DNA from: Verrucomicrobiaceae bacterium UBA2429
Lineage (GTDB): Bacteria > Verrucomicrobiota > Verrucomicrobiia > Verrucomicrobiales > Verrucomicrobiaceae
Length of the DNA stretch: 47,300 nucleotides
Direction: 5' to 3'
Assembly: GCA_002343505.1 (NCBI GenBank)
Contig: DDQZ01000106.1
Coordinates: 51,428 to 98,727 of the forward strand
The position numbers were made by a program, and so were the translations under genes. Shown one piece after another: positions 1,210 to 19,740 of this stretch. Each line of letters begins with the position of its first letter. Positions within the stretch are counted from its first letter, which is position 1. The notes beneath the pieces were generated by a model, which made no database searches, was not told the origin of the DNA, and worked only from the letters and a program-made list of their open reading frames with translations.

Positions 1210-2352
1210 TCATTCCCCGCCCCCCCCACCACGCATCCTCCGCAGCGCATACCATCCGCCGCCAGCTACCTCTGTGATCGGTCGCGCCCCCTCCTTGCGC
1301 CGCGCGCTGTAGCGCCCCCGGTTCGCCTCGAACACCGCCTCCACAAACTCCTTCCCACCCAGCACCAACCCCTCTGAAAAATAGCGCACCCGCAGCCGCA
1401 CCAGCTCGCCCGCCGTCAGCTTGCCTTTCTCCTTGAGCACCGCCCGTGCTTCCTCCGCCGTCACTCCCCGGCGCACCACGTTCTCATTCTGCGCGTCTTT
1501 GACCTCTACACCTGAGCTGAACAACAGGCACCGGTAAGCCTCCGCTCCCCCCTGCTTTTCCCATCCATCCACAGGCCTGCCAGTCACCTTCGCCAACCCC
1601 CTCCGCGCCCGCTGGCTGCCGCCCATCGCCTCCCCGTAGCCGCACCAGCGGTAGTCCTTCGGGTCCTCCACCAGCCCCGCGCGCACCGGGTTCAGATCAA
1701 TGTAAGCCGCCATCGTGTGCAGCGGCTCGCCTTTGCCCTCGACCAGCACGCTCTTGAACCGGTCCATCCACAAAGTGCCCTTGCGCCCCCGGCGCTTGTT
1801 GAACCAGCGGCTGAAGCGCTCTTTGACCTCCTTCACATACAGCGACAGATCGCAGAACCGCCGCTTGATCCGCTCCAGCTTAGCCTCCACCAGCGCATCC
1901 ATGCCCAGACGCCGCAGCTCCCCGATCTCCTGGCGCAGCAGACCGATGAATTCCTTGCTGTAGAGCAACCGCAAATGCTCAAAGAGCCGCTCCTCCCCCT
2001 CCGCCCCGGCGAACCGCTCCAGCCAAATCTCCCGCTTCGGCACCTCAATCAGAGCGTGAAAGTGATTGCCCATCACACAATACGTGACGAGCCGCACGCC
2101 GCAAAACTCGCTCATTTTCCACAGCAGGCGCTTGAGCGCCTCCTTCTCCACGTCATCGAAGAAGACCTCGCCGCCGCAGGTGCGGGACATGGCATGGTAA
2201 GTGTTCGTCTCAAAAACCTCGCGCCCCAGGATGCGCCTGCGCCCGCCAGACCAGGAACGCGCGGCAGGGTAGGGAGCCGTCTTGGCATTGACTCCAACGA
2301 GCTGCTTTTCGAGGTCGTCGGACTGTGATTCAGTGGCTTGAGTGGGATTCAT
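1210..2352 (-). CDS. REP-associated tyrosine transposase (RAYT, Y1_Tnp family)
   Basis: Single-strand DNA transposase-like nuclease of the HUH/Y1 superfamily, the type that processes REP palindromes. The N-terminal domain shows NTYHAMSR (strand 1), the HUH motif in MGNHFHALIEVP, and the family signatures GTLWMDRFKSVLVEG and YIDLNPVRAGLVEDPKDYRWCGYGEA, which holds the expected catalytic Tyr region. A C-terminal extension of about 130 residues ends in a basic, Gly-rich tail. I chose the ATG at 2352 (MNPTQATESQ); the frame is open 13 codons further upstream. At about 380 residues it is longer than minimal RAYTs and belongs with the long forms. It stands alone, without a clear REP pair at its borders, but GTAG-headed hairpins occur elsewhere in the window (39229-39250). 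Probably functional. Confidence 0.85.
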   Translation of the reverse strand: MNPTQATESQSDDLEKQLVGVNAKTAPYPAARSWSGGRRRILGREVFETNTYHAMSRTCGGEVFFDDVEKEALKRLLWKMSEFCGVRLVTYCVMGNHFHALIEVPKREIWLERFAGAEGEERLFEHLRLLYSKEFIGLLRQEIGELRRLGMDALVEAKLERIKRRFCDLSLYVKEVKERFSRWFNKRRGRKGTLWMDRFKSVLVEGKGEPLHTMAAYIDLNPVRAGLVEDPKDYRWCGYGEAMGGSQRARRGLAKVTGRPVDGWEKQGGAEAYRCLLFSSGVEVKDAQNENVVRRGVTAEEARAVLKEKGKLTAGELVRLRVRYFSEGLVLGGKEFVEAVFEANRGRYSARRKEGARPITEVAGGGWYALRRMRGGGGGE

Positions 2353-2570
2353 AATGCGAAAATGGAGCCGAATTGCGAATCGCACAATCACTTTTTGCCT
2401 GGCATCTTTTTTTTTATTACAGCGAAGCCACCTTCACCGCCGCTCAGAAACACCGTGGCCTACCAAGCTGACCCTTTTGGCCCTCTCGCCATCTTGTGAA
2501 CAAAATCTCCAACTCAACTCTTTTTCCGCTTGCAAGAATGCTCAGTCCATCTGGCAACTGTTTAGACTTT

Positions 2571-3020
2571 TTACTTCATGAGTTGTAATGAATCAATAAT
2601 AATCCCAATTTCATCGACGTTATTTTCCGATCTCTTGAGTATGTTTGATATGATATTTATCAACTCATGATCACGCAATAGTTCAATGCCAATAGACAGA
2701 TCGCAAAACGGACTGATTATTATCTTTTTATAGGATATAATATTATTATCAATTTGTTTTGAAGTGACATCGGCAAGAAGAAAAACGACCTCTTCGGATG
2801 GCAGCTCAATTCTGAAACCAAACGAACCGCCATCGCGAAAGCTAATTCGCCGCAGTTTAATTTTTTCATTTTCGAGCACTTTTGTCAAAGTTAATGATTT
2901 TAACAATTTATTTCGAGTCACCAATTGCCATGATGCCATTACATCACTTGACTTGACCTGCGCAACCCCGTCAAAAAATAATGATTTAAAAATAACAATA
3001 GCCAAGATAAGTTTTTTCAT
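2571..3020 (-). CDS. AT-rich exported hypothetical protein
   Basis: A 149-residue protein that I do not recognise. It opens with a typical Sec signal (MKKLILAIVIFKSLFFDGVAQ), so it is likely periplasmic or secreted. The rest is a soluble mixed alpha/beta sequence rich in Ile, Leu, Lys and Asn, with no Cys and no obvious catalytic motif. Base composition is very different from its neighbours: bases 2701-2760 hold 13 G/C of 60, against a GC-rich background everywhere else. That, and the position beside a transposase remnant and a RAYT, indicate recent transfer. The flanks hold no tRNA or integrase. No partner gene is adjacent. I am confident it is a coding sequence because the signal peptide and codon-phase composition fit, but its role is unknown. 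Confidence 0.65.
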   Translation of the reverse strand: MKKLILAIVIFKSLFFDGVAQVKSSDVMASWQLVTRNKLLKSLTLTKVLENEKIKLRRISFRDGGSFGFRIELPSEEVVFLLADVTSKQIDNNIISYKKIIISPFCDLSIGIELLRDHELINIISNILKRSENNVDEIGIIIDSLQLMK

Positions 3021-3413
3021 TTCAAAAAGCTCATTGTGTTTTGCTTGGACATGAGATTTAAAGCCGGGCGACTGCCGCCGGCTAAATTGTCAGGATCAGT
3101 CGGGAAACGGGGTCAGTGTGCAACTGCTTGACGGAAGTGCGGTGTTTACGGGGTGTCGTCATCGGTTTCTCCAGGAAGTGTTTCATTGTTTCGGGTTCCC
3201 TGCCTTAGCGCGCGCATTTTGTCCAGTCGCCTCAACTGCTGGCTCATGTTTGCCGCAGGGATCATTCGTAGTTTGGCTGCCACTCCTTTCTGCGATGTCC
3301 GTGACGAACAGAGCCATTCCTGACGAACTTGTCAGGCGAATGATGACAATGCGGTGACGGCTCATCCTTCATTGAACGGCGCTTTTGCAGTCTGTGGCCG
3401 CATGGTCACGGGT
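3021..3413. other. gene-poor stretch
   Basis: About 390 bases between the AT-rich gene and the ABC transporter. On the minus strand there are two short frames overlapping by ATGA (3183-3365, 60 residues, and 3082-3186, 34 residues). Neither resembles a known protein, so I do not call them genes. No promoter or terminator stands out. Confidence 0.4.
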
Positions 3414-6400
3414 TTAGACGCGTGTGAGCTGCCGGCGGAGGGAGACTTCGACGCAGGTGATGATGAAGCCGAGGGTGAGCAGGATGACCATGCTGTTGAT
3501 CCACAGGGTCTTGAAGGGCGTGCCAAAGTAGGTTTTGGAGGTGCCGAAGAAGACGTTGGGGCTGGCTTTGCGCCGGTAGTCGGTGCGCTCCATCTCGGCT
3601 TTGGTGACGAGGTCGAGCACTTTGCGGTTCACATAGATCTCCTCGGCGCTGGTGCCGTCCTGCTGCTCCAGCGCCTCCTTCAAAAGCTCGGGGGTGAGGC
3701 GGCCGCGCAGAGTGGCATCCCAGATGCGGGCGAGCATTTTCGCGGCGGCGTCGCTGTCCTTCGCATACAAGCCGGAGACGACGGCGAGGCCCTGCTTGGC
3801 GGCGTCGAGCTCTTTTTGCTGGTCGTTGGTGAGCTTGATCTCGGGCGGGATGCTGACGAGATCCTGGATGCGCTCCTCCAGCGTGTCCTGCGCGTGTGTC
3901 AGAGGGTTGAGCTTGGCCTGGGAGATGAGCATGCCCTCGTAGCTCCAGCGCAGGGGCATGAACTGGCAGATGAAGGGCACCTTGAGCTTGGTCTTGGTCT
4001 CCTCCTCATAAATGCCGGCCTTCACCAGCCAGGGCTGGAGGGAGTAGATGAGATCCAGGTTGCGGTTCATTTCCTCGTATTTGATGAGGGCGCCACCGAG
4101 GATGATTTGCGGAATGAGCAGAAGCGGTATGGCATTGATGGCGGTGCGGCTGTCGCCCACGAAGCTGGAGATGAGCAGTCCAAGGCAGGCGCCAGTCAGC
4201 GCGGTGACAAACATCCACCAGAGATGGGTGAAAAACATGTCGCGGATCTCCAGCACCCAGTTGCCGATGAAAAGATAGATCACACATTGCGCAAGGGCGA
4301 AGGCACTCAGGGAGAGGATCTTGCCCAGGAGGTAATAAAAAGTGCGCAGGTTGTGGTTGCGTTCGCGGCTGAGCAGATGGCGGTCGCGGATGATCTCGTC
4401 GGCGCTGTTGGTGAGGCCGAGGAACATGGCCACCACGAGGCTCATGAAGAGGTAGGTGGGGATGTGAAAGGCGGTGGCGAAGGTGTAGGCGTCCTCCTCG
4501 CTGTATTTGAGGACGCTGGAGATGAGGAAGGCCAGCAGGGGGGCCTCGAGCAGGGTGGTGAGCAGGTTGGTGCGGTTGCGCAGCTTCGAGAGGAAGGCGC
4601 GCTTGAGCATGGTGTAGAAGAGGATGCTTTCCTCCCGCACGGTGTGCTTCGGCGGCTTGGGCATGGCGCGGCCGCGCGAGCCGCTCTGGGTGTCCTCGCG
4701 CGGGCGGGCGATGAGGTTGGTGCTGCCGGGGGCGGCCTGGGCTTTGGCCATGCTTTCGAGCAGCAGGTGGCTTTGATAACGGTCGCGCCAGAAATTGGGC
4801 GGGAAGCGGCGCGCGGCCACTAGATGGCCGTCGGCGCTTCGCTCCTGGATGATGTCTCCGCTGATGTCGCGCAGGGGTGTCTCGAGCACGTCGAAGACGA
4901 AGTCGGGCGTGAGGTTGGCGGGCATGGCGGCGCCGGGCTGGCCGGTCTCGTCATTGTAGGCGCGCCAGAAGTATTCGAGCATGGCCTGCGGGGTGCCGAA
5001 GAAGGCCATCTTGCCGCCCTTGTCGAGCAGGAGGGCCTTGTCGAACATCTGCAGGAGCTTCATGCTCGGCTGGTGGATGGAGCAGAGCACGAGCTTGTTG
5101 CGGGCGAGGCTGCGGATGATTTCCAGCACATGCTCGCTGTCCTTCGAGGAGAGGCCGGAGGTGGGCTCGTCGAAGAGGTAGATGTCGGAGATGCCGATCA
5201 TGTCGAGGCCGGCGTTGAGGCGCTTGCGCTCGCCGCCGGAGAGGAATTTCTGCTGCGGGGTGCCGGCCAGCCGTTTGCGCATGTCGGCCAGGCCGAGTTC
5301 GGCGAGCTTGGCTTCGACGCGCTTGCGGCGCTCCTCGGTTTTCAGGTGCGGGCAGCGCACGGCGACGGAGAAGTCCAGGTTTTCCTGCACCTTGAGCAGG
5401 GGGTCGAAGGCATCGTCCTGCGGGATGTAGGCGATGTAGGGGGTAAGGTTCGGCAGGTTTTGATACAGCGAGAGGCCGTTCATCAGGATGTCGCCGCCAC
5501 GGGTGCGGAGCTGGCCGCCGAGGGCGCGCAGGAGGGTGCTTTTCCCGCAGCCGCTGGGGCCCATGACGCAGATCATCTCGCCGCGCCGCGCGCTGAAGCT
5601 GATGCCGTCGAGCGCGGTGTCCTTGCTGTCGAAGCGGTGCGCCAGCTCGCGCACCTCCATCTGGCGGATGGTGTTTTTTTCCTCCTCGATGATGCGGTCG
5701 GCGAAGTGGCAGCGCAGGAACTGGCCCTCGCCGAGGGTGATGGTGTCGCCGTCGCTGAGGGAGATGCGGTCGCGCACGGGCACCTGGCCGACGTAGATGG
5801 GGCGGGAGGCGCGCAGCAGCTCGAGAGTGCCGGTTTTCTGCGCGTAGTTGCACTCGATGCGCAGGAGGATCTCGCCCTCGGTGTCGTCGGAGAGCAGAAT
5901 GTCGCCCTCGTCGAGCAGCTCGGGGTTGTTGGAGACGAGGTAGGTGTTCCGGCTGCCTTCGAGCCGGAACTGGCCGCCGAACTCCTGGGCGCGGACGCGC
6001 AGGTCGCGCAGGGAGATTTCGATCTCGCCGTGGGCGATGATGCTGTCCTCGATGGATGCCTCGACGCGGGTGCCTTCCTTCAAGAGCACGCCGTTGAGGG
6101 TGGCGTCGGTGTTGCGGAGGGCCTCGATGCTGACGCCGAGGCCGAAGCTGACGCGCAGGTTCGTGCCGCGCGCGCGCTGCGGGGCGATCTCGGCATCACC
6201 TGTTTCGGTCAGAGTGAGGTAGAGCTGCGCGCCGGTGACGGTCTTTTTGGCGCTGAAGTAGGAGGCGAGGTCGTTGTAGTCGAGCGTCACGTCCTCCAGC
6301 ACCACACGCTCGGCAGGGTAGAGGCGGGAAAACTCGCCGGGTGGCAGGCGGCGGCTGCGCACAAGCACGGGAATGGCTCCGGTGTTTTTCAGCAGCAAGA

Positions 6401-7067
6401 GGTTTTGATAGCGGAACGCCATCACCGAGCAGTCGGTGGAAAGCGTGCGCAGCAGCACATCGCAGCCCCCGCCGGAGCCGATGCGCAGGGTTTCCAGAGG
6501 CTGGCCGGTCTTGCCGCTGAACTCCTCGTCCTGGGGTTTGTCCCCCGAGTTGAGCTGATAGACGATGTCTATGGCCTGGGCGGCGATGCCCAGGTTCGTC
6601 ATGAAGAGATAAAACTCGACCATCATGCGCTGGTCGGTCAGCGAGCGGGAGATGAGCAGGTAGAGCTGGACGCAGAGCAGGATTTTCTGCTCCAGGGTCA
6701 GCTCCTCGGCGAGTTCGCTGGCGCGCTTGGACAGGTCCTGCGGCTCCTGGAGCGCCTCGAAATAAAGCCGGCGCAGGTCGGCGTAGAGCGTGCCGCTGTA
6801 ATCGTAGCGCAGGTAGCCGAGCGAGGACTCGATCTCATCCTCCTGCACCGCGCCATCCAGTTTCGAAAATCCGGCGAAGACCTCGATGAGCACGGGCAGC
6901 ATGGAATTGCCGTCGCGCGAGGCGAGCACGGGCGCGCCGTCTTCCTCGGCGAACCAGCGCCGCCACCACCAAAGCGGGGAGAGCCTCCGCATGAGGCCCG
7001 CAGGTTCCCGCGCCTGCGACTCAGGCCGCCTGGAGAGGCTGGGGCGGGACATTTGTGAGGTGCTCAT
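3414..7067 (-). CDS. large ABC transporter, ATPase fused to ABC-2/ABCG-type permease
   Basis: A 1217-residue ABCG-like half-transporter with long N-terminal additions; the substrate is unknown. Residues about 50-180 are a helical domain resembling TerB-like domains (VLIEVFAGFSKLDGAVQEDE). Residues about 190-480 contain beta-rich, FHA-like segments (IGSGGGCDVLLR; ISLSDGDTITLGEGQFLRCHF). The ATPase follows: Walker A GPSGCGKST near residue 505, signature LSGGERKR near 607, Walker B YLFDEPTSGL near 630, and the H-loop in CSIHQPS. The membrane domain starts near residue 840 and has about six helices, with a soluble loop of about 150 residues before the last one. The soluble N-terminal half probably senses or docks a partner. 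It is monocistronic and is followed by gene-poor DNA. The translated ABC-2 architecture is clear; the labels for the N-terminal domains are tentative. Confidence 0.85.
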   Translation of the reverse strand: MSTSQMSRPSLSRRPESQAREPAGLMRRLSPLWWWRRWFAEEDGAPVLASRDGNSMLPVLIEVFAGFSKLDGAVQEDEIESSLGYLRYDYSGTLYADLRRLYFEALQEPQDLSKRASELAEELTLEQKILLCVQLYLLISRSLTDQRMMVEFYLFMTNLGIAAQAIDIVYQLNSGDKPQDEEFSGKTGQPLETLRIGSGGGCDVLLRTLSTDCSVMAFRYQNLLLLKNTGAIPVLVRSRRLPPGEFSRLYPAERVVLEDVTLDYNDLASYFSAKKTVTGAQLYLTLTETGDAEIAPQRARGTNLRVSFGLGVSIEALRNTDATLNGVLLKEGTRVEASIEDSIIAHGEIEISLRDLRVRAQEFGGQFRLEGSRNTYLVSNNPELLDEGDILLSDDTEGEILLRIECNYAQKTGTLELLRASRPIYVGQVPVRDRISLSDGDTITLGEGQFLRCHFADRIIEEEKNTIRQMEVRELAHRFDSKDTALDGISFSARRGEMICVMGPSGCGKSTLLRALGGQLRTRGGDILMNGLSLYQNLPNLTPYIAYIPQDDAFDPLLKVQENLDFSVAVRCPHLKTEERRKRVEAKLAELGLADMRKRLAGTPQQKFLSGGERKRLNAGLDMIGISDIYLFDEPTSGLSSKDSEHVLEIIRSLARNKLVLCSIHQPSMKLLQMFDKALLLDKGGKMAFFGTPQAMLEYFWRAYNDETGQPGAAMPANLTPDFVFDVLETPLRDISGDIIQERSADGHLVAARRFPPNFWRDRYQSHLLLESMAKAQAAPGSTNLIARPREDTQSGSRGRAMPKPPKHTVREESILFYTMLKRAFLSKLRNRTNLLTTLLEAPLLAFLISSVLKYSEEDAYTFATAFHIPTYLFMSLVVAMFLGLTNSADEIIRDRHLLSRERNHNLRTFYYLLGKILSLSAFALAQCVIYLFIGNWVLEIRDMFFTHLWWMFVTALTGACLGLLISSFVGDSRTAINAIPLLLIPQIILGGALIKYEEMNRNLDLIYSLQPWLVKAGIYEEETKTKLKVPFICQFMPLRWSYEGMLISQAKLNPLTHAQDTLEERIQDLVSIPPEIKLTNDQQKELDAAKQGLAVVSGLYAKDSDAAAKMLARIWDATLRGRLTPELLKEALEQQDGTSAEEIYVNRKVLDLVTKAEMERTDYRRKASPNVFFGTSKTYFGTPFKTLWINSMVILLTLGFIITCVEVSLRRQLTRV

Positions 7068-7238
7068 GCGGTGGGAAATCCGAAACTCGAAGCTCGAATT
7101 TTTCGGCGCGCAGCCATCGGCGCTGGGCTTCGAGGTTTCAAGTTTCAGCTTGGGAGTTTTATCGAGCCGGCATGGGAAGGATGAATTTCAAAATTCAGGT
7201 TGGTCAAAGCGCGGTGTTTTTGATTCAATGCCGCCGCC

Positions 7239-7481
7239 ATGCTCCTGAATGCCGCCATCCCCGTCCTGTGCATCCTCTGGGTGCTGCTCTGTCTGCGCTT
7301 CTACACGCTGATCAGCCACGAGAATGTCTGGCAGCGGCGCTTCATCGCCATCGGCGCCGGACTTGGCGCGGGCTTGATTTATCTGCTCGGCTCCATGCTG
7401 ATGCCCTGGCTGAAAATGCCTGACAACCCCCTGGAGGCGCCCGTCAAACAATCGGAAAACGTGCGTGTGAAAGGCAAATAG
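7239..7481 (+). CDS. small two-helix membrane protein
   Basis: An 80-residue protein with two predicted membrane helices (about residues 4-20 and 37-57) and a charged tail (PVKQSENVRVKGK). I do not recognise the family. It lies 93 bases upstream of secG on the same strand, which suggests co-expression with the Sec translocon gene, but there is no direct evidence of a role in secretion. The start ATG at 7239 is the first in the frame and leaves a normal length. The upstream gap to the divergent ABC transporter (7068-7238) contains TTCGA/TCGAA-rich sequence similar in style to the dispersed repeats elsewhere in the window. Coding status is likely because of the hydrophobicity pattern and position. 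Confidence 0.6.
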   Translation: MLLNAAIPVLCILWVLLCLRFYTLISHENVWQRRFIAIGAGLGAGLIYLLGSMLMPWLKMPDNPLEAPVKQSENVRVKGK

Positions 7482-7574
7482 ACCCGCCTCGCGCGGGCGG
7501 CGGGCGCGTGTCTTTCACGCGCGTCCAGAAGCAGCTTGCCAAAGGGGGAAGTGCCCTCATAGTGAGCGCCCCTT

Positions 7575-8189
7575 ATGGACATTGTTATCGGCATTCTCAT
7601 GGTGGTCGAAGTTCTCGTCTGCCTCCTTCTCATCCTCATCGTTCTCATGCAGCGCCCCCGCCAGGAGGGGCTGGGAGCCTCGTTCGGCGGTGACATGATG
7701 TCGCAGATCGCCGGCGCGCAGACGACGAACGTGCTGCAGAGGTTCACGGTTTATCTGGCCATCATCCTTTTCGTTCTCACTCTCGGCCTTTCCATGCTCA
7801 CCGCCCGCCAGCAGACAGCCAGGGCAAACGCCAAAATCTTCGATGCGCCGCCGCCTCCCGCGCCGGTCGAGGCTCCCAAGCCTGTGGAAAGCCCGGCTCC
7901 GGCTGCCGCAGGCGATGCCGCCCCAAAAGCCGGTGAAAAATCCGCCGCCCCGGCCAAGGATGAAACCGCGCCAGCCAAGAAGGACGAGGCGAATCCCCCG
8001 GCTCCGCCTGCCGGCGCGCCGAATCCGCCTGCGGAGGCGAAAAGCGCTCCTGCCACTCCCCAGGCTGCCGAACCCGCTCCCCAAGCCGCAACTCCAGCGA
8101 TGAAAGAGCCCGCCGAGCCAGCTCCTCCCGCTCCTCCCGCAGCCGCTGACAAACCCGCCGCGGAGCCTGCCGCTCCCAAGTCCAACTGA
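7575..8189 (+). CDS. secG: preprotein translocase subunit SecG with long Pro/Ala tail
   Basis: Inner-membrane subunit of the SecYEG translocon, assisting SecA-driven export. The canonical part is residues 1-78: first membrane helix about 4-25 (IGILMVVEVLVCLLLILIVL), the cytoplasmic loop QRPRQEGLGASFGG that is diagnostic for SecG, and a second helix about 55-77. Most SecG proteins end soon after this. Here about 120 more residues follow, almost entirely Pro, Ala, Lys and Glu (repeated PAPPA, AEP and AAPK phrases). This is a low-complexity linker-like tail that would lie on the side of the C-terminus. The start ATG at 7575 is fixed by the hydrophobic N-terminus. It precedes the M23 peptidase gene by 29 bases, so the two may share a transcript. 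Confidence 0.9.
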   Translation: MDIVIGILMVVEVLVCLLLILIVLMQRPRQEGLGASFGGDMMSQIAGAQTTNVLQRFTVYLAIILFVLTLGLSMLTARQQTARANAKIFDAPPPPAPVEAPKPVESPAPAAAGDAAPKAGEKSAAPAKDETAPAKKDEANPPAPPAGAPNPPAEAKSAPATPQAAEPAPQAATPAMKEPAEPAPPAPPAAADKPAAEPAAPKSN

Positions 8190-8218
8190 GGCCGCGCGGT
8201 TTCACCATATTAATTCCC

Positions 8219-9052
8219 ATGTCCGGCGGCAAGGCAGCACCCATCGCCCGGCGCAGCCTCTTTGCCGCCGCCGTTCTTGCCTTGTCGGGTTTCCTGCAAG
8301 TCTCGGCGCAGTCCTCCGGCCAGGTGCGCTGCCAGCTTGCGGATGGGTTTGATTTCCCCGTGGGCAAGCCGAACGCGGACGGCTATTACAAATCGCGGGG
8401 CTACTGGCCCAACGGTCATCTTGGCGAGGATTGGAACCACCGCAGCGGCGGCAACAACGACCTCGGCCATCCCATTTACTCCTGCGCGCGGGGCGTGGTG
8501 GTCATCTCCGAGGATGTGCGCGCCGGCTGGGGGAACTGCGTGATTGTGCGTCATGCCTACCGCGATGCCACGGGCAAGATCGCCATGGTGGACAGCCTTT
8601 ACGCCCACCTGCTTCAACGCGGTGTGAAAGTGGGGCAGGTGGTGGAAAAAGGCCAGCTCGTCGGCACGATGGGCGGGAACAACGGCATGTATTATGTGCA
8701 TCTCCACTTCGAGATGCGCAAAAACCTCCGCATCGGCATGAACCGCTCCCAGTTCGCCAGGGACAACAGCAACTACTACAGCCCGACGGACTTCATCAAC
8801 AAGCACCGCACTCTGCCGACCAGCTTTCAGAAGTATCCGATACCCCTTGGCTATTTCGCGCCTTACGGTCGTTCGCAGGCGGACATGCGCCCTGACGACG
8901 GGGCCGTCATCCAAGTGCCGACCCTTCCTGGAGGCGCGTCAAAAATCCTGCCCGAAAGCGGGCCTTCCGCCGATGACGAGGACTTCTGGTCGAAATTGCG
9001 CAACCGTTTGAAGCAAGGCAAGGTGACCAACGGACTCGACGAACAGCGTTGA
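8219..9052 (+). CDS. exported M23-family (LytM-like) metallopeptidase
   Basis: Likely periplasmic peptidoglycan endopeptidase or a LytM-type regulator. A signal peptide covers about residues 1-30 (ARRSLFAAAVLALSGFLQVSA). The zinc site of the M23 fold is present: HLGED gives His67 and Asp71, YAHL gives His130, and the HxH motif YVHLHFEM gives His161 and His163. All metal ligands are therefore intact and enzymatic activity is expected. The C-terminal 60 residues are a charged, Pro-rich tail without a known domain. At 277 residues it is a simple single-domain member with no coiled coil of the EnvC type and no LysM. It follows secG closely and is convergent with the sulfatase, whose stop lies 26 bases away. 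Confidence 0.85.
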   Translation: MSGGKAAPIARRSLFAAAVLALSGFLQVSAQSSGQVRCQLADGFDFPVGKPNADGYYKSRGYWPNGHLGEDWNHRSGGNNDLGHPIYSCARGVVVISEDVRAGWGNCVIVRHAYRDATGKIAMVDSLYAHLLQRGVKVGQVVEKGQLVGTMGGNNGMYYVHLHFEMRKNLRIGMNRSQFARDNSNYYSPTDFINKHRTLPTSFQKYPIPLGYFAPYGRSQADMRPDDGAVIQVPTLPGGASKILPESGPSADDEDFWSKLRNRLKQGKVTNGLDEQR

Positions 9053-11312: not shown

Positions 11313-11451
11313 TTTGCAGTCAGGAACTCGTCGGTCATTCCCAGTCACACCCAATCCGCACACAGCAGCTCCGCCTGTTGCAGCACCTTCTTCAGGCGGC
11401 CTCCTGAAGGTCCGGCGGGTAGCCATACTTGTTCAGGATGCGCTTCACCAT

Positions 11452-11599
11452 GACGCAAGCCGAAGGAGCGGGGCGACTGAACCGTAGGCGAAGCCGGAGA
11501 TAGCCAGATCAAGGCTGCCCGCAGGGCGAACGAAGTGAGGCAAACAGGCTGTGCGAAGCACAGGCCGAAGGCCGACCGAGCGGCGGCAGCGAGGGAGCC
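11452..11599 (-). repeat. 148-bp hairpin-rich insert in hsdR copy
   Basis: It lies exactly between the codons for ARAKI and MVKRIL of the hsdR duplicate, replacing about six bases of the intact copy. On the minus strand it holds CCTGCGGGCAG and CTGGCTATCTCCG, both shared with the insert at 19573-19638 in hsdM, plus small hairpins with TTC or TTCG loops (GGCCTTCGGCC, TGTGCTTCGCACA). Confidence 0.7.
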
Positions 11600-11745
11600 A
11601 ATCTTCGCTCTCGCACTTTCGCGGAGCGTCCAGTCAATGCTCACGCTCTTGCGCACCTGGGTGATGAGTTCGGCGGCGATGACTTTCAGTTTGTCGTCGC
11701 CCATGGCCTTCACGGCGGACTCGTTGGCGGCGAGGGCGTCGTAGA

Positions 11746-11827
11746 GCCGAACCGCTGGGGAGCGAGCGAGACAGACAGCGCGGAGCGATGGGCGCAAGCC
11801 CGACTGAGCGGGAGCGAAGGAGTCAAC
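11746..11827 (-). repeat. 82-bp insert in hsdR copy
   Basis: It interrupts the hsdR duplicate between DDEI and YDALAAN; the intact copy has only AG at this place. On the minus strand it opens with a CTCCTTCGCTCCCGCTCA phrase, similar in style to the insert at 19399-19458 (CCTTCGCTGCGCTCA). No open frame or gene is inside. Confidence 0.65.
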
Positions 11828-11937
11828 GCGATCTCGTCATCGATCAGGCCGAGGTCTTCGCCGCGCTTGGCCGCGGCATCCATCTCCTTGGCGAGGCGGA
11901 TGAGTTCCTCGATCACCTCCATCGTGCTGATGGCGCG

Positions 11938-12117
11938 TTCAGCCCCGAAGGGGCGCGATATGCCAGCCCAGGGCAACGCCCTGGGTTCGATGGTCACAAC
12001 CATCCCAAGCCCTGAAAGGGCGAAACAACGGTTGTGCCGCCCCTTCAGGGCTTGATCAAACGGGGACGCATCCCCAGGGCGTTGCCCTGGGCTGGCATGT
12101 GCCGCGCCGCTGGCGCT
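11938..12117. repeat. composite palindromic element with nested inverted repeats
   Basis: A 180-bp structure in the hsdR duplicate. The outer arms 11960-11985 and 12073-12098 are perfect 26-base inverted repeats containing CCCAGGGCAACGCCCTGGG. The inner arms 12006-12021 and 12039-12054 are 16-base inverted repeats with one mismatch (CAAGCCCTGAAAGGGC). Each end adds a short hairpin: GCCCCGAAGGGGC at 11942-11954 and GCGCCGCTGGCGC at 12104-12116. It replaces about 195 bases of the intact hsdR copy. It contains no gene. It resembles a non-autonomous REP/BIME or MITE-like element. Confidence 0.8.
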
Positions 12118-12201
12118 TAAACCCGGCGGCGGTGAAGACATCGATCACCTGCCCGTCGGTCGAGATGGCCTTGCTCACGAGCTGGCGCACGGCGGCGTCA
12201 G

Positions 12202-12278
12202 GGGAAGTGCGAAGTCCGATGTGCGAATGGCGAAGTTCCGCCAGTTCGACATTCGGTATTCAGCATTCGAAATTCCCC
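12202..12278 (-). repeat. ATTCG-rich element, copy A1
   Basis: A 77-base run of GAATGnnGAAT phrases between the truncated hsdM fragment and the truncated hsdR duplicate. Its reverse complement follows the same order of blocks as 19272-19356: GGAATTTCGAATG, CGAATGTCGAAC, GGCG, then ATTCG and GGACTTCGCACTT. The two copies are in opposite orientation. Confidence 0.7.
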
Positions 12279-12522
12279 CGATGATGGCCATTACGCCTTC
12301 GTCTTTGAGGAAGTGGAAGCCGTGCAGCATGAAGGCGAAGTCGGCGGCGGACTTGGGGGCCATGCCGTGGCTCTTGAAGCGCACGTCGTCGCCCATGCTC
12401 TCGCTCGGATCCCAGCGGTAGCAGCCGAGCGGATTGCAGATGCCGGGCCATTCGACATTCCGAATTCGTCATTCGTCATTTCTTCCGTCGCCGTGGAAGA
12501 TTTCGAACTCGGTGTCCTTCAC
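12279..12522 (-). pseudogene. hsdM: hsdM fragment, copy 1 of duplicated lineage
   Basis: Type I DNA-methylase fragment starting 2 bases after the hsdR stop. It reads KDTEFEIFHGD, then after the ATTCG repeat ICNPLGCYRWDPSESMGDDVRFKSHGMAPKSAADFAF and HGFHFLKDEGVMAII. In functional relatives the segment before YRWDP is the catalytic NPPF/NPPY motif; here it reads NPLG and the upstream part is deleted. The 3-prime end is cut off by the ATTCG element at 12202-12278. This HsdM belongs to a different lineage from the one at 18904-19740 (FKSHGMAPKS versus [13 protein letters not shown]). The locus therefore holds debris of two type I systems. Dead gene. Confidence 0.8.
12445..12486 (-). repeat. ATTCG-rich element, short copy A2
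   Basis: It lies inside the hsdM fragment, between FEIFHGD and the NPLG remnant, where about 20-30 codons are missing. The minus strand reads GAAATGACGAATGACGAATT then CGGAATGTCGAATGG, the same vocabulary as the copies at 12202-12278 and 19272-19356. Confidence 0.6.
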
Positions 12523-12524
12523 CC

Positions 12525-14401
<1,877 letters not shown>

Positions 14402-15706
14402 TCAGAGCAACCGTTCAACCTTGTTGGCTGTGCGGTAGCGCACCGGTTTTGGTTTGGTGACTTTCTCCAAGTCCGCTTCCTCTACCAGGCGAGCTAGCCA
14501 AGCCTTTGCCTGCGGTTTCGTAACGACCAGCAGAGTCGCCACTTCTTCCTCCGTGCGAGCTTCGGCGAGTTCACGGCGAAGAATCTCCCTCACCGTGTTC
14601 AATAACTCCGCTTCAGGTGACGGCTTCGCGTCGGTTGCCGTTGGCTCGGCTTTTACCACCGTTGCTTTCGTTGGCTTTGCAACAGGTGCAGCATCATAAA
14701 CGACCGGTTCCTCCCGCAGGCTAAGTGGCAGCGTGTCTTGCTTTGGCTCCGCAGCGACGAACTGAGCCGCAGCGACGAGCGCTACCCCCAGTTCATTGCC
14801 GCTTTGAGGATTTGGCCACGGTTTGCCTCCGCGACTCAGCAAGGCCGAGTTGCCCTTGCCTGCGTTGGCCCCGTTGCGGACAAAGACAGGCACAAAGTGC
14901 AGACGTTCAAGTTGCTCAATAGCTCCAGCCCATGTTCCTCCCTTCTCGAAGTCTGAGGTCACCACCAAAGCCGCGTCTGCGAGGGCATAGATGAGTTTGT
15001 TTCGTTGCATGGCATGCCCGACGTTGAAGCCCGCTGCCGGATCGTAAGGAGAAATGAGCACCAGTCGGCCTTCCATCAACGGCTCCCGATTGTCCCGCGC
15101 CAACGCCGCCCGCTCCAAGCTATCCGCCATCACTCCCGCCACATCGCCGCCCGCCATCAGAGCACCATGCATCGCCGCCCTGTCTATTCCCTTTGCTCCA
15201 CCTGACACGATGTTGCGATGCGCCTCGGCGCTCAGTCGCCCTACGTTTTCAGTGAAGCCGACGAGTTCGTCATCCACATGGCGAGAGCCGACGACCGCCA
15301 ACCCGCCCTTTTCGAGCAAAGCAATATCGCCGCACCCATAAAGCAGCGGAGGCGCATCTTCCTTCAGCTTGGATTTTAGCCGTCTCGGGTATTTGGCGTC
15401 AGCCCGGCTAATCACCCAGATCGCCCGAGCGTTCCACCGCTCAACTGCTTGACTGAGCAGGAACCCACGCCCAAGCAACGCTTCAAGTCGCGCCCGGCCG
15501 AATGGCTGCGCGCAAACTTCAATCAACTCCTGCGCATCTGGCGCGAGCAAGTCCGCAGGCTGTTTCTGCTTTTGGCGCAGAATGAGGGTGAGCCGGTTGT
15601 ATTCACCCAGGCTGAGTAGATCTCGCGAGGTCTCACCGCGTCCGGCAATCAGCGGAGCGGTCAGCAGCAGGATGGCCTGCGTGTTTGGTGTCAGTGGCTC
15701 AATCAT
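14402..15706 (-). CDS. DprA-like SLOG-domain protein with C-terminal winged helix
   Basis: A 434-residue protein with a DprA/Smf-type Rossmann-like (SLOG) domain. After an N-terminal helical region (1-110), residues about 133-275 carry [11 protein letters not shown], the signature [16 protein letters not shown] (168-183), [33 protein letters not shown] (two pieces of one conserved block, about 218-249) and [15 protein letters not shown] Pro/Lys/Thr linker follows, then a winged-helix-like domain (about 365-425, [26 protein letters not shown]). Real DprA loads RecA on incoming single strands, but SLOG domains also bind nucleotides in defence systems. The start ATG overlaps the stop of the RecQ-PRTase gene by four bases (ATGA), so the two are translationally coupled. 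Its stop abuts the hsdR remnant. I infer a defence role, not natural transformation. Confidence 0.85.
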
Positions 15707-17778
15707 TCGTCAGAGTTTGCAGTTGATGCCAGTGCCAGAGGATACACCGGACCACTGCCGTTGGAGGTTAAAAGATAAGCAGCGACCGTCAGCGTCCACT
15801 TGGAATCCACCATGTCATCAACCAGCAGCACAGGGCCAGTTGGCACCTGTCCACGGACGGCCAGTGCGCCATCAACGTTGCGCGCCTGCTGGCTACTGTT
15901 CGCCATATCCTTCTGCGCGGGCCGGTCGTCCGTCTTCTCCAGAACTGGATGAAACGGTAGATTCAGAGCCACCGCCAGACGGCGGGCAAAGTCCTGCACC
16001 AGCTCAGGATGCCTTCGTGATGGAATGCATGTCACCCAAACCGGTGAAGGCTGTGGTGCCCAGCTTCGCACCATCGCGGCACAAGCCTCCACCAACTGGT
16101 CAGCAAAATGCCCGTCACGCGACTTGCCCTGCCTCACCAAAGAGCCCCAGCCTGCATCATTCCAGATGCACAGGACTCGCCCGGGCTGAGCGCGGAAAGC
16201 CTCGGCGATGTTTCCGCTGACATTCATCTGCGGCAGACCTCCACCCGGCCATTGGCGGCGTGGCTCCAACGGCAGACTGGTGCGGCGCAGGTAGGTCAAC
16301 GCCTCGCGGGCGATTCCTTCGTCGAATGTTGCTGGCAGCGGAGCCACATCTGGCGATTGATGTTCGCTTACCTCCCCGTCCAAGGCACCGACAAGGAACT
16401 CCATGTGGCCGGCTCCCAGTGCAACATACTCCTGCATCTGTTGTTGCTCAGCCCTGCGCAGTCCGGTGAGTCGGTCGGCTCGTTGCCAAAATGCCTCCGT
16501 CAAATTGGCTGCGGTGAGCCGCCACTTGCTGCCCTCCTTCACAATCGGGGCTGGCGATTCGAGCGCCATGAGTTGCAGCGCCTTGTCGATCCGCCCGCGC
16601 CGTGCATTCACCAGCGGCAGCAATTGAGGGATGGAAAGCCCGTCCGGCGCGCCTTGCAGCGCGGCCAGCACTCCCGCCACCTCCTCACGCGAAGGGAAAG
16701 CGCTCTCAATGAAGAAGTCTGTAATGTTGGTTTCCTCTGCGCCGCTCAGCAACACCCCGTGAGCCGCATTCAGTGCTCGGCCAGCACGGCCGACTTGCTG
16801 GTAATAAGCCACGACCGAACCTGGCGTCTGGTAATGAATCACAAATGCCAAATCCGGCTTGTCGAAGCCCATGCCAAGCGCCGTCGTCGCCACCAGCGCC
16901 TTCACTTGGTTCTCCAGCAGCGCGTTCTCCAGTTCCACGCGTCTCTCGCCGGTTTCACCGCTATACGCTTCCGCCTGAATGCCCCGCGATTGCAGCCAGC
17001 CTGCGATCTGCACCGCATCACGCACGGTCAGCGTGTAGATGATGCCGCTGCCCGCCATGCTCGGCAGATGAGTCGCCAGCCATGCCATCCGCCCCACCTG
17101 GCTCGGGATGCGCATCGTCTGGAGCAAGAGCGACGGCCTGCCCAGTCCGCCGCGCGACACCGTGAGATTCGGCCCCAGCACCATCTGCAAGTCATCCAGC
17201 ACCCGGTTGTTCGCTGTGGCCGTCGTCGCCAGCACGCGGAGGTTTGCGGGCATCGTGCGTAGGATGCGTTCGATGAACCGATAGTGCGGGCGAAAGTCAT
17301 GGCCCCAGTCCGAGATGCAATGCGCCTCATCCACCACCAACAGCGAAATACGCGCGGCAATCGGTGCCAGCACTTCCGTGCGGAAATGTTCGTTGGCCAG
17401 CCGTTCGGGAGAAATCAGCAAAATGTCCACCTCGTTCCGCGCCAGCGCCGCCTCGACCACCTGCCAGTCGTCGCGATTCTCCGAGTTAATCGTTACTGCA
17501 CGCACTCCCATCCTCTCCGCCGCCGCGATTTGGTTCCGCATCAGCGCCAGCAAGGGCGAAATCAAAATGGCCGGCCCCATGCCTTCTTCCCGAAGCAGCT
17601 TGGTCGCGATGAAATAGACCGAACTCTTTCCCCACCCCGTCTTCTGCACTACCAGCAGTCGCCCGCGCCCCTCCACCACATGCTGAATCGCCTGCTCTTG
17701 ATCATCACGAAACGCCGCCGCCGGGTTTTGTGTTCCGAGACACAGCAGTTCAAGAGCGCGTGTTGGATTGTAAGGCAT
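15703..17778 (-). CDS. RecQ-like DNA helicase fused to ComF-type phosphoribosyltransferase
   Basis: A superfamily 2 helicase with a C-terminal PRTase-like domain. Numbering from the ATG at 17820: motif I TGWGKS (61-66), DEAH in [20 protein letters not shown] (164-167), motif [11 protein letters not shown], motif [14 protein letters not shown], motif [10 protein letters not shown] (341-348). After the RecQ core, the region of the usual zinc-binding subdomain (about 465-500, [12 protein letters not shown]...) has none of the expected four Cys. Residues about 590-705 look like a ComF-like PRTase: [19 protein letters not shown] and the PRPP-loop motif [14 protein letters not shown] prefer the start at 17778 ([12 protein letters not shown]), because the longer form only reads through the end of the preceding gene. 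Stop and next start overlap as ATGA. The gene looks intact amid pseudogenes; it is probably a defence helicase acting with the DprA-like protein. Confidence 0.88.
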
Positions 17779-17800
17779 GGCGAGTTCCGTGGCTATAAGT

Positions 17801-18898
17801 TCAAAATTCGACCACGACATCCTTGCCGAACTTCAGTTCAGCGACCTCGGCAGCGAGGCGGATGATGGTTTTCTTCAAAACATTGTTCAGGTTAGTGGCG
17901 ACCAACCAGCCGCCCGGCAGAGTGTCGCGCATATCGCGCAGGTCTTCACGGTCGGGATAAAGTTCTTCCGGTGTCCGCGCGATGTAGCGGCGCTTGCGGC
18001 CTTGGGCGTCCCGGTGTTGGGAACAGCGTTCGAGGAACGAGGGATCGGTCTTAGCGAGTTCTCGAAGGACGATGACCATGGCATCCTTGGCGTTTTGGTA
18101 TACGTGCACCTTGCCTAGCAGCACGAGCTTGCCGCTGCGGGTCGTTTCGTTCGTAGTGCGCGTCGGCGTCGAACGGGAAGAAACACCGGCACTCGGCTGT
18201 GTTGTGTTACTCCGTGCGGCTTCCACGATGATTGTCTTGCCGAGGCCTGCGAGAAACTCTGCGACATCGTCCGCATCGGGCCGGACTCCCGCTCGCGATT
18301 CCACGGCGTTGGTCAGCATTTCCACGAGGAGTTCGTCGCCTTTTTCAACCAATTCACGCCAAGCCTCAGGAATGGCGGCTTTGGCCTGCGATTGTCGGTT
18401 GCGGCTGCGGTATTCCTTTCGTGCAGTCTCGAGCGCTTCGCCGGACTGGACTCTGGCGCAATCCAAGTAGCGGTGAAGCGCTGCGGCGGCTTCGGCAGGC
18501 GGGCGCTCGTAGAGGTCGAGCTTGTAAACCCGCCGGTCCTCGTAGCTGCCTTGTTCGGCGGGGAGGTAAAAGCTCCACGTTCTCCCGTCGGTCAGAACGA
18601 CGAAGGGAACACCTGCGTGAAAAGCGTATTCGAGTGCTTGGCGCACCGCGTCCTCCGCTTTGCCGGGCTGTTTGACCTCGGTAAACACCGCCGGCTTCGA
18701 GGGAGGATGGCACAGCGCGAAATCCGCACGACCTTCGCCTGTTTGATATTCGGGCCAAACGACGTTGGTGTCCCAAGTGTCCCAACTGAGTTCCTGAAAA
18801 ACGCGCAGCACGATGCCTTGAGAAATGGCCTGTTCGTTCGGAAACTTTCCCTGACGCAGCCGTGAAGTGATGTCGGCGAGTGTGGTTTCGAGTGACAT
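17801..18898 (-). CDS. HsdR_N-like PD-(D/E)XK protein
   Basis: A 365-residue protein whose N-terminal half is a type I restriction HsdR_N-like nuclease fold. The putative catalytic residues are Glu22 (FPNEQAIS), Asp59 in GEGRADFAL and Glu74-x-Lys76 in FTEVKQPGKA, so the PD-(D/E)XK pattern is complete. Further family phrases are VLTDGRTWSFYLPAEQGSYEDRRVYKLDLYER and IPEAWRELVEKGDELLVEML. The C-terminal part (about 250-365) is a separate, charged domain ending in ELKFGKDVVVEF. There is no helicase domain. It starts 5 bases after the hsdM remnant and ends 22 bases before my chosen recQ start, so it reads as the first intact gene of a three-gene operon. Stand-alone proteins of this type are common next to type I loci; whether it cuts DNA is unproven. 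Confidence 0.82.
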   Translation of the reverse strand: MSLETTLADITSRLRQGKFPNEQAISQGIVLRVFQELSWDTWDTNVVWPEYQTGEGRADFALCHPPSKPAVFTEVKQPGKAEDAVRQALEYAFHAGVPFVVLTDGRTWSFYLPAEQGSYEDRRVYKLDLYERPPAEAAAALHRYLDCARVQSGEALETARKEYRSRNRQSQAKAAIPEAWRELVEKGDELLVEMLTNAVESRAGVRPDADDVAEFLAGLGKTIIVEAARSNTTQPSAGVSSRSTPTRTTNETTRSGKLVLLGKVHVYQNAKDAMVIVLRELAKTDPSFLERCSQHRDAQGRKRRYIARTPEELYPDREDLRDMRDTLPGGWLVATNLNNVLKKTIIRLAAEVAELKFGKDVVVEF

Positions 18899-19271
18899 AA
18901 GTTTTAAGCAGCAAGGGCCACGCTGAGTTTTTCCGTCGACGCGAAGAGCTGGCCGGGGAGGGCGACCATGCAGTCCACGAGGTCGGCCTCGATGAGGGCT
19001 TTGCGAATCTCGCCTTCGCCGGACTGGTTGGAGGACATGCTGCCATTGGCGAGGACGAAGCCCGCCATGCCCTGCGGGGCGAGGTGGTGGATGAAGTGCT
19101 GCACCCACGCGAAGTTGGCGTTGCCCTTCGGCGGGACGCCGAACTGCCAGCGCACGTCGTCGTCCTTGCGGAACCAGTCGGAATCGTTGAAGGGCGGGTT
19201 GGCGATGACGAAGTCGGCGCGAAGGTCGGGGTGCAGGTCGCGGCGGAAGGTGTCGGCGTGCTCCGGGCCGA

Positions 19272-19356
19272 GGGAAATTCCGAATGATGAATTTCGAATG
19301 ACGAACGGGCGCGATTTCTTCACTTCGACACTCACAATTCGGACTTCGCACTTTGC
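19272..19356 (+). repeat. ATTCG-rich element, copy A3
   Basis: An 85-base element within hsdM, in the position of about 45 missing codons after the SAM-binding motif. It begins GGGAAATTCCGAATGATGAA, then TTTCGAATGACGAACGGGCG, and ends ATTCGGACTTCGCACTT. The same block order is seen in reverse complement at 12202-12278. It is translated in frame on the minus strand as [20 protein letters not shown] and NSSFGIS. Confidence 0.7.
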
Positions 19357-19398
19357 CACGCCGCCGGAGCCGCAGGCGGGGTCGTAGATGCGGCCATT

Positions 19399-19458
19399 GT
19401 CCTTCGCTGCGCTCACGACCTGCGGTGAGGCTTCGCTTTGAAGAAATGCGCTGCCGCG
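19399..19458 (+). repeat. hairpin-rich insert in hsdM, copy C3
   Basis: About 60 bases inserted in frame between LAPYT and [12 protein letters not shown] of hsdM. It contains CCTTCGCTGCGCTCA and CCTGCGG, the same vocabulary as the inserts at 11746-11827 and 19573-19638. It adds roughly 20 residues ([20 protein letters not shown]). Confidence 0.55.
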
Positions 19459-19572
19459 CAGAGCAGTGTAGGGTGCGAGCATCTCGACGAGCAGGCGCAC
19501 GACGCAGGACGGCGTGTAGAACTGCCCGCCGTTCTTCCCCTCGGCGCTGGCGAACTGGGTGAGGAAGTATTG

Positions 19573-19638
19573 ATTCGCTACGCTTACCCTGCGGGCAGTC
19601 TGCGGCTGGCTATCTCCGCTGCGCTCCGGCTCCGCCGC
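19573..19638 (+). repeat. hairpin-rich insert in hsdM, copy C1
   Basis: About 66 bases at the large deletion junction between NNMDAAE and [10 protein letters not shown] of hsdM. It shares CCTGCGGGCAG and CTGGCTATCTCCG, with the same spacing, with the reverse complement of the insert at 11452-11599. The opposite orientation of the two copies shows that both directions are tolerated. Confidence 0.65.
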
Positions 19639-19740
19639 GTCCATGTTGTTGCGGAGCTTGTCGGCGGCGCGCCAGAGCTTGGCCTCGAAGCCAAGATTGG
19701 CGGTGGAGTCGGCGGGTTTGCTGGATGTTTTGCGTACCAT

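Follow-up and report, generated by a model that had tools for sequence, protein, structure and literature searches.

Intact PsyrTA/RqlHI genes and a predicted nuclease with a SeqA-like tail among the remains of type I restriction genes in a Verrucomicrobiaceae genome

The window analysed here is a stretch of 47,300 nucleotides from Verrucomicrobiaceae bacterium UBA2429 (contig DDQZ01000106.1, positions 51,428 to 98,727), and our subject is a run of three genes on its minus strand: gene 1, psyrT, and psyrA. A preliminary description, made from the DNA letters, had correctly placed three intact open reading frames there (Table 1; psyrT as 15703–17820) and had read them as one defence operon with no named counterpart. 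We find that an intact PsyrTA/RqlHI pair adjoins an intact gene whose product is a predicted nuclease with a SeqA-like tail, pair and gene probably having been joined by the decay of two different type I restriction operons.

Judged by sequence, the second and third genes are a full-length PsyrTA/RqlHI toxin–antitoxin pair, with PADLOC matches over nearly the full model length (E-value 6.8e-271 for psyrT and 7.9e-132 for psyrA). With this assignment, the claim that no named system exists does not hold for psyrT and psyrA, while the suggestion that the helicase–phosphoribosyltransferase (PRTase) and DprA/SLOG genes belong together, in a module of toxin–antitoxin or defence kind, is supported. 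By structure comparison, the helicase part of PsyrT resembles RecQ structures, and the DprA part of PsyrA resembles DprA structures and, weakly, the antitoxin ShosA (9vzo, E 6e-4). PsyrT is a helicase–PRTase fusion with intact ATPase and phosphoribosyl pyrophosphate (PRPP) motifs, among them the ComF-like PRPP-binding motif already named in the preliminary description; its DprA-like partner lies directly downstream, and the ATGA overlap between the two genes at 15703–15706 is as first noted. Walker A residues T47–S52, the DEAH motif (150–153), and PRTase residues D654 and D655 are invariant among 12 aligned homologues. A housekeeping RecQ or DprA was rejected, as PADLOC places the pair in PsyrTA; the other matches to PsyrT and PsyrA in the genome are at most 34% and 30% identical, respectively.

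The start of psyrT is likely to be the ATG at 17778 rather than 17820: the DNA of the two closest relatives (L009, and G234 from the same family) is homologous only up to 17781 on that side, and an in-frame stop in G234 is gone once the query begins at 17778. As this stop falls before the likely start, the reading of the G234 psyrT as a pseudogene was rejected.

The E. coli homologue RqlH is genotoxic through its PRTase domain, and RqlI binds and neutralises it; rqlH lies upstream of rqlI where both occur, and rqlH occurs alone in many bacteria, chiefly Gram-positives (PMC4670107). As reported for RqlHI, PsyrA would bind PsyrT and restrain it, and the PRTase activity of freed PsyrT would damage DNA and halt growth. 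A DprA gene together with a PRTase gene gave protection against T7 and lambda, with a sensing role proposed for DprA (PMC9122126); the DprA-like part of PsyrA may likewise sense single-stranded or phage DNA, and the pair would then act by abortive infection. Weighing against a protective role, a native-host study reports that the PsyrTA of its strain gave no protection and caused a growth defect (PMC12409345).

The surrounding type I locus is in pieces, with hsdM and hsdR present as fragments and no whole set of hsdR, hsdM, and hsdS. A locus from another family of the same order (L138) has an intact hsdM-hsdS-DUF6119-psyrT-psyrA-(436 aa)-hsdR operon. Compared with it, the window hsdM matches just the two segments listed in Table 1 and the window hsdR just residues 445–564 and 566–1048; the HsdS proteins of L138 and L133 have no match in the window. 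The earlier statement that every hsdM and hsdR gene is broken therefore holds within the window but not genome-wide, as long N6_Mtase and HsdR-like frames (524 and 1121 amino acids, respectively) are present on another contig of this genome, C69. DNA identity to L138 is 77.8% for the hsdR remnant, 88–95% for the hsdM pieces, and 69% for psyrT, and thus these parts have different histories. In G234, psyrTA lies ~20 bp after a 5' fragment of hsdR and ~33 bp before a 3' fragment of hsdM. Although the matches of these fragments are weak (E 6e-6 and 9e-6), G234 is, by its sequence, a second case of psyrTA outliving restriction genes. Homology of L009 and G234 to the window does end at the edges of the psyrTA genes, but the G234 flanks are different hsd genes, which deletion explains better than a precise mobile cassette, and the latter was rejected.

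Table 1. Features of the locus, in window coordinates.
Feature	Position	Strand	Description
gene 1	17801..18898	-	365 amino acids; HsdR_N-type PD-(D/E)XK nuclease domain and C-terminal SeqA-like DNA-binding domain (~residues 259–365)
psyrT (rqlH-like) toxin	15703..17778	-	691 amino acids; RecQ-like helicase and C-terminal phosphoribosyltransferase domain
psyrA (rqlI-like) antitoxin	14402..15706	-	434 amino acids; DprA-like SLOG protein; ATGA overlap with psyrT
hsdM remnant	18904..19740	-	residues 62–93 and 226–434 of a 594-amino acid HsdM
hsdR remnant	12525..14377	-	residues 445–1048 of a 1049-amino acid HindI-type HsdR, in two frames
second hsdR copy, scattered pieces	11345..12211	-	

All three genes have low ratios of nonsynonymous to synonymous substitution rates (dN/dS): 0.076 and 0.078 for psyrT (against L009 and G234, respectively), 0.165 and 0.088 for psyrA (in the same order), and 0.094 for gene 1 against L156, where dS is near saturation. 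Changes on the window branch are largely synonymous (synonymous to nonsynonymous, 76.5:13.5 in psyrT and 36:6 in psyrA). These values agree with the preliminary claim that preservation amid decay implies selection. However, the hsdR remnant also has a low dN/dS against L138 (0.118–0.138), and its 602 codons contain a single frame change and no stop; hsdR therefore broke recently, and the intactness of the trio is for that reason weak evidence of selection. More telling, though few, are the ends of the deletions, which fall at intact gene edges (no more than 36 bp away in the window and no more than 33 bp from psyrTA in G234).

Two alternative accounts of the locus may be weighed against this evidence. 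The preliminary description saw one three-gene defence operon, in which the nuclease cuts DNA ends opened by the helicase and sensed by the DprA-like protein, and the shared strand, the tight spacing (a 22-bp gap between gene 1 and psyrT, then the ATGA overlap), and the intactness of all three genes fit that view. The co-occurrence check does not. A gene 1 relative was absent from all 96 PsyrT loci (80 from a search for relatives and 16 from a census of the phylum), 81 of which have enough DNA before psyrT to show one (at least 1.2 kb). Of 288 phylum genomes, 5 have gene 1 (E up to 1e-20) and 16 have PsyrT (E up to 1e-120), and the family sample of 68 genomes gave 3 and 2, respectively (E up to 1e-20 and 1e-100); in each sample, only the present genome has both. 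As ~0.2 further shared genomes are expected by chance in the phylum sample, the counts show a lack of association, not avoidance. Gene 1 adjoins hsdS instead in L133 and L156. We therefore rejected the trio as a conserved operon and consider a single functional unit very improbable; most likely the trio is a scar of two decayed restriction loci. On the nucleotide signalling that the preliminary description had suggested, the analysis brought up no evidence in either direction. The other account concerns psyrTA, which persists in the window despite the broken operon. It might be a passive leftover under no current selection, there only because the restriction genes broke recently, and the state of the hsdR remnant does leave little time for loss. 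We give this account a substantial chance, if short of even: the placement of the deletion ends, here and in G234, speaks against it, as does the excess of synonymous changes on the window branch of psyrT, though these changes may predate the loss. Addiction to the antitoxin may be what keeps psyrTA at the broken locus.

PsyrTA is nested in type I operons elsewhere. The order hsdM-hsdS-psyrT-psyrA-hsdR occurs in Vibrio furnissii (L039) and Providencia heimbachae (L068), hsdM-hsdS-(other genes)-psyrT-psyrA-hsdR in L137, and psyrT-psyrA-hsdR in a Nitrospirae metagenome-assembled genome (L010). A type I gene lies on the same strand within 5 kb of PsyrT at 14 of the 96 loci; the remaining loci divide into 44 with short flanks and no type I match and 38 that lack a type I neighbour despite at least 5 kb on both sides, the last group counting against a general tie. 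A quick tree built from 92 PsyrT proteins (15 with a type I label and 35 without) requires 12 or more changes of that label, and the association has therefore been gained or lost frequently. The observed frequency of 7/52 compares with a random background of ~0.6% per place on one strand (233 N6_Mtase matches in 187.9 Mb from 40 of these genomes), which is too low since defence genes cluster; hence we place more weight on the repeated gene order. Other neighbours were also seen: PsyrTA has a DUF1156 gene on one side and a DUF499 gene on the other in L035 and L053, and it lies directly before a RecC-like gene in L018.

The HsdR_N-type nuclease domain first noted in gene 1 is borne out, and the preliminary description overlooked a SeqA-like C-terminal domain. 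Structural alignment shows a fold similar to SeqA at 17% identity, and four of the five SeqA positions that contact GATC are kept in at least 25 of 28 gene 1 homologues. Several results weigh against this assignment. The position matching SeqA T117 is mostly lysine in the homologues; the window protein scores under the SeqA cut-offs of both Pfam (18.7 of 25.5 bits) and NCBIfam (20.2 of 185 bits); and the homologue in L133 had no SeqA match in the family scan. The Foldseek E-value for the likeness is just 0.02–0.05, and profile comparison of gene 1 with E. coli SeqA gave a probability of 1.7%. The gene 1 family profile found nothing among PDB chains at E up to 1, and the tail profile had no match to E. 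coli SeqA at E up to 10. The gene 1 sequence, too, found nothing in the PDB at E up to 1, and none of the 12 families detected across 28 members of the gene 1 family is the N-terminal SeqA domain (PF17206), which is listed for all the SeqA proteins compared. Relatives of gene 1 are common in environmental data, where 1625 of the 7998 candidates scored reach E up to 0.001; among plasmids and phages, nothing matched gene 1 at E 1e-5.

A scan of 387 phylum genomes gave SeqA-family matches in 14, all of one class (L159–L173), and most of the proteins checked look like ordinary SeqA-like proteins without the nuclease part of gene 1. The same scan missed gene 1 of the present genome, which falls below its limit. 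The gene 1 tail profile weakly matched one SeqA-like protein of the phylum (E 0.0018, in a tiny set).

Gene 1 has type I neighbours of its own, in the order hsdR (EcoEI type)-gene 1-hsdS-AAA-hsdM in L133 and gene 1-hsdS-...-N6 methylase in L156. It precedes an AAA_13 gene in L132, is broken in L134, and is cut short in L147. The AAA_13 gene (L132:2769–5015) matches the PADLOC candidate family PDC-S06 (E 1.3e-181). In the window, the frame of the hsdM remnant ends with ten codons (18933–18904) that resemble the end of another hsdR; this stretch before gene 1 is similar to EELNEILVA, the HsdR end in L133, and to EELNEALAA, which precedes gene 1 in L156. From these resemblances we infer that gene 1 was brought in together with the end of the gene that preceded it and that it now borders on the remains of another operon. 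Its possible origin from another hsdR operon is suggested by about ten codons, and the L156 gene ending in EELNEALAA has no match to the L133 HsdR.

What the two parts do may be considered together. SeqA recognises Dam sites in the hemimethylated form but does not bind those that are fully modified or unmodified, and incoming Dam-methylated DNA takes on the hemimethylated form when it is first replicated in a host that lacks Dam (PMC12707154); a nuclease with SeqA specificity would therefore cut methylated DNA from outside after it has been replicated. Accordingly, the SeqA-like domain of gene 1 is predicted to bind adenine-methylated, probably hemimethylated, GATC-like sites and the HsdR-type domain to cut DNA, making the protein a putative modification-dependent restriction nuclease against DNA that arrives methylated and is then replicated. 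If GATC sites of the host are methylated, the enzyme would need holding back; the genome has six MethyltransfD12 matches. PsyrTA within type I operons may act as a back-up for the case that restriction fails or is blocked, in the manner of PrrC. The joint proposal, that gene 1 reads hemimethylated GATC-like sites and restricts methylated invaders at replication while PsyrTA is a recurrent suicide module of type I operons, frequently lodged between hsdS and hsdR, that can outlive the operon it guarded, is speculative, and we think it rather unlikely to hold in full. A closer PrrC parallel, in which the restriction complex silences PsyrTA and anti-restriction proteins or loss of restriction trigger it, seems to us similarly doubtful. 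The position between hsdS and hsdR in L039, L068, L138, and L137 and the repeated label changes on the PsyrT tree are in its favour, as is the precedent of PrrC, which is embedded in a type IC operon and released on infection (PMC3874165, PMC12707154). But PsyrTA has its own antitoxin, the 38 long-flank loci do without a type I neighbour, and the copies in the window and G234 stay despite broken restriction genes, which would be intolerable unless PsyrA alone suffices. For gene 1, the SeqA-like domain might instead be a mere fold relative that binds unmethylated DNA or protein, the gene being a type I restriction accessory. The adjoining hsdS in L133 and L156, the low identity and weak sequence scores, and the lysine at the T117 position make this a serious contender, though still one we would bet against, given how well the GATC-contact positions are kept.

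Comparison with known systems places the two parts differently. The window pair shares with PsyrTA/RqlHI a RecQ-like helicase with C-terminal PRTase, a DprA-like partner directly downstream, and overlapping ends; its proteins show no difference, and only its setting, in a broken type I locus beside an extra nuclease gene, sets it apart. ShosTA also has a DprA-like antitoxin (PADLOC ShosA E 1.5e-22 for the window psyrA), but psyrA scores 438 bits on the PsyrA model versus 78 on ShosA, and the ShosTA toxin is not known to carry a helicase. The prrC gene occupies a slot between hsdS and hsdR. In EcoprrI, a toxin gene is embedded in a type I operon (PMC3874165), as psyrTA is in L039, L068, L137, and L138, whereas the window pair has just type I remnants around it; moreover, PrrC is an anticodon nuclease with no separate antitoxin gene, and the tie of PsyrTA to the restriction complex is putative. 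For gene 1, the nearest functional precedent is, by analogy, DpnI, which reads Gm6ATC (PMC3874153). DpnI and other modification-dependent enzymes join a PD-(D/E)XK nuclease to a reader of modified DNA, as predicted for gene 1. Gene 1 differs from DpnI in its HsdR-type nuclease domain, its SeqA-like instead of winged-helix reader, and an activity that is predicted. With SeqA itself, gene 1 shares the tail fold and the four contact positions; it has a nuclease domain in place of a reported SeqA N-terminal domain, and the sequence similarity is weak.

Further observations concern the broken genes and their relatives. The protein before psyrT in L138 (L138:7275–8894) is of the DUF6119/TIGR04141 kind, and the 436-amino acid protein after psyrA (L138:12285–13595) has no match in Pfam, PADLOC, or NCBIfam. 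The psyrTA genes of L009, the closest named relative (PsyrT 93% identical), are flanked by 359-bp direct repeats, 94% identical (L009:26–384 and L009:4019–4377). Contig C10 of the present genome (G000) has more scattered hsdR pieces and one hsdM piece (~1744–8601). Among the scattered hsdR pieces of the window, 11941–11985 on the minus strand matches the Acido-Lenti-1 RNA family (42.2 bits, gathering 37). The hsdM remnant has a short insert (19270–19350, minus strand) with the self-similar string ttcgtcattcgaaattcatcattcgg, and similar strings occur at 12240–12480; it looks as if small dispersed repeats had helped to break the hsd genes.

No description of PsyrTA as a guardian nested in type I operons was found in the literature, nor, by title or abstract start, a paper describing a SeqA–nuclease fusion; both results are provisional, as subscription journals lie mostly outside the search. 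The main text of a restriction review (PMC12707154) does not mention RecQ, DprA, or PsyrT, and the review mentions SeqA as a tool. What had been taken for a new trio thus becomes one known module and one unexpected enzyme. A nuclease with a SeqA-like reader, if the prediction is true, would be an apparently undescribed way to sense DNA methylation, and the recurrence of PsyrTA inside type I operons offers a place to seek its trigger, which the text of the RqlHI paper leaves open (PMC4670107).

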